Origin: Burkholderia sp. BCC0322
GTDB taxonomy: Bacteria > Pseudomonadota > Gammaproteobacteria > Burkholderiales > Burkholderiaceae
Length of the DNA: 64,000 bases
Reading direction: 5' to 3'
NCBI RefSeq assembly: GCF_902833045.1
Contig: NZ_CADFDU010000010.1
Span: 186,001 to 250,000, forward strand
Of the stretch, positions 31,935 to 33,130 are shown piece by piece; within the stretch, counting starts at the first letter, position 1; the number at the start of each line of letters is the position of its first letter. The notes beneath the pieces are model-generated. The model saw only the letters and a list, made by a program, of their open reading frames with translations, was not told the origin of the DNA and did not search any database. Made by a program: the position numbers and the translations under genes.

Positions 31935-31940
31935 TATACT
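31935..31940 (+). promoter_or_regulatory. Candidate -10 element of the trpS leader transcript
   Basis: TATACT ends 6 bases before the leader-peptide ATG. A transcription start at normal distance would fall on or next to that ATG, giving a leaderless mRNA. No matching -35 was found. Confidence 0.4.
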
Positions 31941-31946
31941 CGCGCA

Positions 31947-31997
31947 ATGGAAACCCAACCCGCCCTGCCGAACCTGCATTGCTGGTGGCGCGCCTGA
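31947..31997 (+). CDS. trpS leader peptide with adjacent Trp codons
   Basis: A 17-codon ORF, METQPALPNLHCWWRA and stop. The two consecutive TGG codons (31983-31988) stand four codons from the stop, the hallmark of a tryptophan attenuator peptide. It lies 119 bases before trpS. Ribosome stalling at the Trp codons when charged tRNA-Trp is scarce would mask the segment 31991-31995 and release the antiterminator strand. The peptide itself probably has no function. Confidence 0.8.
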   Translation: METQPALPNLHCWWRA

Positions 31998-32067
31998 CCC
32001 AGGCGGCCCGTTTCCTTTTGCATGTCCCAAACGTGATGCCGCCAGCGATGGCGGCATTTGCGTTTCT
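31991..32067 (+). promoter_or_regulatory. Tryptophan attenuator of trpS
   Basis: Four pairing segments are visible. Segment 1 (CGCCT, 31991-31995) pairs with segment 2 (AGGCG, 32001-32005). Segment 2 extended (GGCGGC, 32002-32007) can instead pair with segment 3 (GCCGCC, 32038-32043). Segment 3 (32036-32044) pairs perfectly over 9 bp with segment 4 (32049-32057) around a GCGA loop, followed by TTGCGTTTCT. This is the classical arrangement of ribosome-mediated attenuation. Low charged tRNA-Trp should favour 2:3 pairing and trpS expression. Confidence 0.8.
32036..32067 (+). terminator. Attenuator terminator hairpin before trpS
   Basis: A perfect 9-bp stem with a GNRA-type GCGA loop is followed by a T-rich run with seven T in the next ten bases. 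It lies in the trpS leader and ends 50 bases before the trpS start. Confidence 0.75.
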
Positions 32068-32116
32068 GCGCAGACACCATGGCTGGCGGCTTCGATAACC
32101 CGGAGCAACGACCAAC

Positions 32117-33130
32117 ATGACCCACCCGACCCGACCGACCATCCTCACCGGCGACCGCACGACCGGCCCGCTGCACCTCGGCCACTACATCGGCTCGCTG
32201 CGCGCCCGCGTGCACATGCAGCACGAAGCGAAGCAATTCCTGCTGCTCGCCGACACGCAAGCGCTGACCGACAACATGGGCCGCCGCCAGCGCGTCACCG
32301 AGAACGTGATCGAAGTCGCGCTCGACTATCTCGCGGTCGGCATCGATCCGGCGATCTCGACGATCGTCGTGCAGTCACAGGTGCCGGAACTCGCCGAGCT
32401 GTCGCAATACCTGCTGAACCTCGTCACGGTCGCGCGCCTCGAACGCAATCCGACCATCAAGGAAGAGATCCGCCTGCGCGGTTTCGAGCGCGACATCCCG
32501 GCCGGCTTCCTGACCTACCCGGTGAGCCAGGCGGCCGACATCACCGCGTTCAAGGCGACGCACGTGCCGGTCGGCGACGACCAGTTGCCGATGATCGAGC
32601 AGACCAACGAACTCGTGCGCCGCTTCAACGCGACCGTCGAGCAACCCGTGCTGGTCGAATGCGAGGCCGTGCTGTCGCCGGTCACGCGGCTGCCGGGGAT
32701 CGACGGCAAGGCAAAGATGAGCAAGTCGCTCGGCAACGCGATCACGCTCGGCTCGACGCCGGACGAGATCACGCAGGCCGTGAAGGACATGTACACGGAC
32801 CCGAACCACCTGCGCGTGAGCGATCCCGGCCAGGTCGAGGGCAATGTCGTGTTCACGTTCCTCGATGCGTTCGAGCCCGACGTGCAGAAGGTGGACGAGT
32901 TGAAGGCGCATTACCGTCGCGGCGGGCTCGGCGACAGCGTCGTCAAGCGCGTGCTGAACGAGCGGCTGCAGGCGTTGATCGAGCCGATCCGCACGCGCCG
33001 TCGCGAATTCGAGGCCGACAAGGCCGAAGTGATGGCGATCCTCAAGCGCGGCACGTTGCACGCACGGGACGTGGCCGGCGCGACGCTCGCGGAGGTGAAG
33101 GGCGCGATGGGGTTGAACTACTTCGATTGA
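32117..33130 (+). CDS. trpS: Tryptophanyl-tRNA synthetase
   Basis: A 337-residue class I synthetase that charges tRNA-Trp in the cytosol. It has the HIGH-type signature LHLGHYIG at about residues 18-25 and KMSKS in [14 protein letters not shown] near residue 200. The tryptophan-pocket segments DTQALTD and [12 protein letters not shown] are also present. Length and motifs are standard. The ATG has GGAG about 11 bases upstream. The gene stands alone behind an attenuator that senses charged tRNA-Trp, so the enzyme should be induced when its product is scarce. Confidence 0.97.

Follow-up and report, generated by a model that had tools for sequence, protein, structure and literature searches.

A trpL-type attenuator that probably controls an auxiliary tryptophanyl-tRNA synthetase gene in Burkholderia and related bacteria

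Introduction

What controls the trpS gene carried by Burkholderia sp. BCC0322, and which kind of tryptophanyl-tRNA synthetase (TrpRS) does it encode? The question is raised by the window, a stretch of 64,000 nucleotides (contig NZ_CADFDU010000010.1, positions 186,001 to 250,000), in which a first-pass annotation had described a complete tryptophan attenuator just before trpS. The comparisons and folding analyses presented here make a ribosome-mediated transcription attenuator of the trpL type the best explanation of this leader, and a highly probable one when judged from sequence. The leader probably lets Burkholderia and its relatives switch on an auxiliary TrpRS only when charged tRNA-Trp is in short supply.

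The gene downstream of the leader

The trpS gene of the window (32117..33130, plus strand) encodes a protein of 337 amino acids whose closest counterpart, among solved structures only, is the TrpRS II of Deinococcus radiodurans (E 3e-125; PDB 1yi8 and 2a4m), with identical residues in 203 of 331 aligned columns. Among the genomes compared, the one nearest to the window (G001, Burkholderia) possesses two TrpRS genes, an orthologue of the window TrpS at 99% identity and a second TrpRS that is 40% identical over residues 9-240. Across 65 Burkholderia genomes, an orthologue with 82-99% identity is found in 49, a relative with 63-72% identity in nine, and neither in seven; a match of roughly 40%, also listed in that search, is taken to be the housekeeping TrpRS. 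Proteins of the window type were found at E<=1e-70 in 42 of 300 genomes in an order-wide search and at E<=1e-90 in two of 369 genomes in a class-wide search, one of the two being G001. Because of the second TrpRS in G001, the likeness to TrpRS II and the distribution within Burkholderia, the gene is most likely an auxiliary TrpRS of the TrpRS II type, which upholds its annotation as a tryptophanyl-tRNA synthetase gene and refines it, in that the housekeeping copy would be another gene.

Resistance to indolmycin was considered as a reason for the spare enzyme. The Arg in the GDRTTG motif of the window TrpS appears, by residue numbering, to align with a site linked to indolmycin resistance in Streptomyces. 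The other TrpRS of G001 also has Arg there (GMRPTG), and the idea was dropped because the residue does not discriminate between the two enzymes.

Elements of the leader

A -10 box, TATACT (31935..31940, plus strand), lies 6 nt 5' of the leader ATG, as had been noted, with no recognisable -35 element for this box in the window. The leader ORF (31947..31997, plus strand) runs from the ATG at 31947 to the stop codon at 31995-31997, encodes the peptide METQPALPNLHCWWRA, and includes, as the first-pass annotation had stated, two adjacent Trp codons, TGG TGG (31983..31988, plus strand), that would serve as control codons. Segment 1 (31991..31995, plus strand) overlaps the end of this ORF and pairs with the beginning of segment 2 (AGGCGGCCCGTTT, 32001..32013, plus strand), CGCCT at 31991-31995 with AGGCG at 32001-32005. 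Segment 2 can pair alternatively with segment 3 (AAACG..ATGCCGCCAG, 32029..32045, plus strand) to form the antiterminator, GGCGGC at 32002-32007 with GCCGCC at 32038-32043, and CGTTT at 32009-32013 is also complementary to AAACG at 32029-32033. Both of the pairings proposed earlier are therefore found at their coordinates; the antiterminator is longer than had been claimed, by the CGTTT/AAACG extension.

Segment 4 (TGGCGGCAT..CGTTT, 32049..32065, plus strand) supplies the terminator 3' arm and tail. The perfect hairpin of the first-pass annotation is borne out, with a stem of 9 bp (32036-32044/32049-32057), and it excludes the antiterminator, since GCCGCC is used in both the 2:3 and 3:4 pairings. 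The T-rich tail fared less well: the sequence 3' of the stem, TTGCGTTTCT, is only moderately T-rich and makes an imperfect tail, and a generic scan of 31500-32200 called neither a promoter nor a plus-strand terminator. Folding of the window sequence alone gives a modest gain over shuffled sequences (z -2.17 and z -1.47). Beyond the terminator and before the ribosome site of trpS lies a fifth segment (CATGGCTGGCGGCTTC, 32078..32093, plus strand) that is complementary to the terminator 5' arm and loop, and segment 3 is common to the antiterminator, the terminator and this 3:5 pairing. The likely Shine-Dalgarno (SD) sequence of trpS, assigned by its sequence, is GGAG at 32102..32105 on the plus strand.

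On the same strand, a 51-codon ORF with a hydrophobic stretch (31748-31902, MKNSKPSLRPP...) ends 44 nt before the leader ATG and is nested within an 84-codon ORF listed at 31648-31902.

The trpS genes of Gram-positives often have T-boxes, and a T-box, riboswitch or protein-binding leader that directly senses tRNA-Trp or tryptophan is a rival reading of the window leader. Such direct sensing is extremely improbable here, as zero Rfam matches, T-box included, were obtained up to E=1 over 28000-36000, and a conserved ORF with tandem Trp codons is present instead.

Conservation in close relatives

The close set comprises the window and 62 loci with a TrpS at least 82% identical to it, 49 from the genus and 13 from the family. 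All 63 loci possess a WW leader with a -10 box 6-8 nt before its ATG, the box having formed part of the search pattern; it reads TATACT in 62 and TATAAT in one, and its spacing to the ATG is 6 nt in 53 loci, 7 in eight and 8 in two. In a 43-row alignment (A1), TGGTGG, GGCGGC and ATGCCGCC are invariant and the leader codons further upstream vary, such that the control codons pass the comparison with relatives that the first-pass annotation had proposed. Four of the five pairs of the 1:2 stem are invariant in the 43 rows and the fifth is unpaired in 14, and in the same alignment 98.3% of 472 cells are paired in the 2:3 antiterminator and 95.7% of 601 cells in the 3:4 terminator with its outer stem. 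Covariation inside this clade is uninformative, for or against, because the stem bases hardly vary.

A search of the 65 Burkholderia genomes with a leader covariance model (R1) gave matches at E<1e-19 in 49, each of them lying, by coordinates, directly upstream of the trpS orthologue; in the 16 genomes without a trpS of at least 82% identity, the model found nothing better than 1.6e-4. One genome (G055, contig C1, 784974-785542) has a second copy of the leader, situated before a fragment that matches TrpS residues 237-337 and about 5.7 kb from the intact copy.

Diverged relatives and covariation

Among 66 diverged loci, with TrpS below 80% identity, 25 have a WW leader and 41 have no qualifying leader; the 25 do not include loci with single Trp or KW leaders (L066, L067, L118) or one in which the leader stop is lost (L106). 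Named genomes were scanned as well, and the best 80 loci of a longer list yielded 62 leaders, of which 61 were retained after removal of a weak and far upstream one that is likely a false positive (L209), and 19 of the 80 loci lack a qualifying leader. Because species overlap between the two sets, their counts are not additive. The 61 retained leaders, with WW in 49 and a single Trp in 12, come from Burkholderia, Paraburkholderia, Cupriavidus, Massilia, Herbaspirillum, Chromobacterium, Duganella, Rugamonas and Undibacterium (two loci), and, outside the Burkholderiales, from five Aeromonas, one Aeromonadaceae metagenome-assembled genome (MAG) and one MAG labelled Deltaproteobacteria. The Massilia, Herbaspirillum, Chromobacterium and Aeromonas loci retain the same plan with altered sequences. 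No qualifying leader was found in Methylophilus and Methylobacillus loci (L174, L182, L184) or in three other Undibacterium loci (L211, L214, L219).

The altered sequences are informative about the terminator. Representatives of the diverse leaders were clustered at under 0.80 similarity, and pairing was scored in the 33 of 48 that share the core CCGCC..GGYGG. Counting outward from this core, the first three positions are paired in 33, 31 and 32 of these 33; at the second of them the pairs are T-A in 19, C-G in nine, G-C in two and T-G in one, and sliding the arms by one leaves only 2 and 4 of 33 paired. At the fourth position 29 of 33 are paired, as compared to 18 and 25 when slid, and at the fifth and sixth positions pairing in the 33 representatives is no better than slid. 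The covarying stems that the first-pass annotation had asked of relatives are thus seen in the terminator, where pairing is kept with changed bases (31 of 33 at the second position). The antiterminator is better than 95% of shuffles in 30 of the 45 representatives tested out of 48, and 147 of 149 leaders yielded a hairpin followed by a T-rich tail, some of these picks probably not being the real terminator (L166, L092, L079 and L120 are doubtful). On sequence grounds, the leader, its Trp codons, the stems, the promoter geometry and the identity of the gene can be regarded as established.

The position of the hairpin between an upstream small ORF and trpS raises the question of whether it merely ends the upstream transcript, or acts as a constitutive terminator, with the WW leader incidental. 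That seems very unlikely, given the near-fixed spacing of the -10 box and the presence of the WW leader in every close locus, and given that the leader plan persists where the terminator sequence differs.

The notion that the leader stands only before spare copies of trpS was rejected as a rule, and describes a tendency among the 66 diverged loci. WW leaders occur in 22 multi-copy and three sole-copy genomes, and loci lacking one in 24 and 17, respectively (Fisher p 0.014, a statistic that ignores relatedness); the three sole-copy genomes with a WW leader (G297, G504, G532) all belong to one genus (g78). One locus (L115) looks as though it had lost its leader peptide: by eye, the last 130 bases before trpS still contain a terminator-like hairpin and T-run together with the GGCGGCAT and ATGCCGCC segments, but a Trp leader was not found there.

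Other candidate Trp leaders were seen upstream of trpE. In G001, in a genome of another genus of the same family (G153) and in one of another family (G297), a Trp-rich ORF encoding MFLNKKRSL.SIDRGAWPWRRWSR or a relative of it is followed by an apparent hairpin and T-run, at distances of 412 and 442 nt (L135 and L136) and 249 nt (L139) from the trpE match, and is probably a separate trp operon leader. In three loci from other families (L131, L132, L133), short ORFs with WRW motifs (for example MSALSDRLILRWRWRR) precede trpE, and a terminator upstream of trpE is not obvious by eye.

Ribosome position and the termination decision

Folding in defined ribosome states, with the ribosome assumed to cover 10 nt past the A-site codon, gives opposite outcomes for the two states. 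When the second Trp codon occupies the A site and the RNA ends before segment 4, the 2:3 pairing forms in 63 of 63 close loci; when the stop codon occupies the A site, the 3:4 pairing forms in 63 of 63; and with no ribosome on the RNA, segment 2 has its first bases paired in 62 of 63. After segment 4 has been made, 3:4 is the minimum-energy fold in all 63 loci even with the ribosome stalled, and 2:3 is kept in none, meaning that antitermination must be kinetic. The leader of the E. coli trp operon, trpL, subjected to the same state folding as a control, behaves in the same way, kinetic antitermination included. The conserved Trp leader, the covarying terminator and these opposite folds together support the proposal that trpS is preceded by a ribosome-mediated attenuator.

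The start position, stalling, read-through and induction that we infer from this arrangement are as follows. Transcription would start no more than about two bases from the leader ATG, such that the leader would be translated as a leaderless mRNA. With plentiful Trp-tRNA, the ribosome would get to the stop codon and cover segment 2, the 3:4 terminator would form, and transcription would halt before trpS. With scarce charged tRNA-Trp, the ribosome would stall on the two Trp codons and cover segment 1, 2:3 would form before segment 4 is made, and RNA polymerase would read into the TrpRS II gene. It is the state folding and the Trp codons that lead to the expectation that scarcity of Trp-tRNA raises trpS2 expression.

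A leaderless start

The suggestion that the leader mRNA is itself leaderless, based originally on the TATACT box of the window, where the ATG falls on the predicted +1, is favoured by promoter geometry across relatives. In addition to the spacing in the 63 close loci, 57 of the 61 named leader ATGs are at the expected start, being preceded by a -35-like pentamer at 34-38 nt or a -10-like hexamer at 5-8 nt, as compared to 41 of the 869 other ATGs found upstream in these loci; the 57 of 61 is partly circular for leaders with several ATGs, because the promoter match helped choose among in-frame ATGs. Counted from 80 nt before to 60 nt after the leader ATGs, TTGAC starts 35-37 nt before the ATG in 30 of 36 occurrences, and all 20 occurrences of TATACT start 12-14 nt before it; these two promoter designs would both place the +1 on or next to the ATG. 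The leader mRNA is thus likely to be leaderless. As far as the published text at hand goes, the main text of a transcription start site study of B. cenocepacia does not mention trp (PMC4603805), and the study that followed it up tabulates 82 short 5'UTRs (PMC5688073).

A fifth segment

Across the 63 close loci, segment 5 has a best 11-base match of 9.95 pairs on average, versus 7.40 for base-shuffled sequence, and the complementarity is absent in a few of them (L037, L053, L054, L057). Among the diverse leaders, 47 of 49 clustered leaders entered a dinucleotide shuffle test (L120 and L090 were lost), and the complementarity is better than 95% of shuffles in 26 of the 47. A permutation test without L142, a near-duplicate of the window, found the pairing of each leader with its own segment 5 to be 3.72 kcal/mol better than permuted after row and column correction, with 0 of 20000 permutations as low and a mean rank of 10 of 45, at n=46, although the effective n is smaller because relatedness is ignored. 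Segment 2 has no such own-versus-other specificity (8671 of 20000 permutations as low), as expected for a segment that is nearly constant. By the permutation test, segment 5 covaries with the terminator 5' arm and loop across diverged relatives.

Segment 5 cannot act in the first decision, because it is transcribed only once RNA polymerase has left the terminator behind. When the RNA from the terminator to the trpS start is folded, 21 of 47 leaders favour 3:5 and the other 26 favour 3:4, the window being among those in which this shorter RNA prefers 3:5. Over the longer stretch 31999-32160 of the window, the energies are -54.7 for 3:4, -53.5 for 3:5 and -49.0 for 2:3, leaving 3:4 ahead by 1.2 kcal/mol, which at equilibrium argues against the idea that segment 5 locks the RNA out of the terminator fold.

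When 3:5 is forced in the window, the fraction of the SD predicted to be unpaired rises from 0.01 to 0.28, a modelling result suggestive of a link between segment 5 and the trpS ribosome site. In a blocking test run on 23 of the 26 significant leaders, of which 22 were scored, blocking segment 5 raised SD accessibility by >0.2 in 11 of 22 and lowered it in three; two of the 11 have an SD that is itself part of segment 5, making 9 of 20 the fairer count. Both results could also be taken to mean that control is mainly translational, with little transcription termination, and that translation of the leader acts through segment 5 to open or close the trpS ribosome site. This is nonetheless very improbable, as a hairpin with a T-rich tail is so nearly universal among the leaders, doubtful picks aside, and as only 7 of 43 leaders show pairing between the SD and upstream sequence that is better than 95% of shuffles. 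A general SD-sequestering hairpin was rejected on that count, and would be lineage-specific at most.

With transcription attenuation retained as the primary mechanism, our best guess is that segment 5 provides a second checkpoint after read-through. After read-through driven by 2:3, segment 3 would move to segment 5, locking the mRNA out of the terminator fold and, in some lineages, freeing the trpS ribosome site; after leaky read-through, segment 3 would stay in 3:4 and the mRNA would be poorly translated. Alternatively, terminated leader RNA may pair in trans with segment 5 of the trpS mRNA. That one or other of these five-segment schemes operates is a tentative proposal, one that we hold to be possible rather than probable; if true, either would constitute a second checkpoint on top of classical attenuation.

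Relation to known attenuators

The leader resembles E. coli trpL in having WWR near the end of the peptide, segments 1-4 and the same state-folding behaviour. E. coli trpL governs biosynthesis, whereas the leader described here would govern a synthetase, and E. coli trpL is not leaderless. Attenuation of a synthetase gene had been considered much less usual by the first-pass annotation, a view that has to be tempered: Vecchione and Sello are said to have described, in 2010, an auxiliary, antibiotic-resistant trpS under ribosome-mediated attenuation, and Streptomyces trpS leaders with the same kind of control are already on record.

In the sections available of the respective papers, a candidate attenuator is placed upstream of trpS2 in Streptomyces avermitilis (PMC1262725), and the trpL2 leader that precedes trpS in S. 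lividans is said to be leaderless (PMC8079986). Like the leaders analysed here, those of Streptomyces combine a Trp-codon leader peptide and alternative hairpins with control of trpS. The S. lividans trpL2, as characterised in those sections, has one Trp and no U-rich stretch, whereas most leaders here have two or three Trp codons; compared by described features, the present leaders further differ in their proteobacterial hosts, the TrpRS II-type gene, the GGCGGC/GCCGCC core and the fifth segment. A leaderless precedent is also provided by Sinorhizobium meliloti trpL (rnTrpL), where, in the part of the paper at hand, the attenuator RNA begins with the ATG of the leader ORF, lies upstream of trpE(G) rather than trpS, and after termination acts in trans (PMC7298713). 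Like the window TrpS, D. radiodurans TrpRS II is an extra TrpRS, and a review links it, in its excerpted text, to nitric oxide synthase (PMC9437257). A trpS attenuator in Burkholderia or other beta-proteobacteria was not found among the literature matches listed, a weak negative as subscription papers fall mostly outside that scope, and the main text of a genome-wide terminator study, in the portion available, does not name trpS (PMC2965389). Given the Streptomyces precedents, the mechanism belongs to a kind already known, of which this is a variant, here widespread; the unexpected part is the extra pairing segment.

Together, the results indicate that a leader peptide controls a spare TrpRS in many beta-proteobacteria and some gamma-proteobacteria, and this control suggests when the puzzling second TrpRS is made. 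The apparently leaderless start, with its two promoter designs, makes it testable how ribosomes load onto nascent leaderless RNA early enough for attenuation. Should the proposed role of segment 5 hold, an attenuator would be able to include a checkpoint that operates once the termination decision has been taken.
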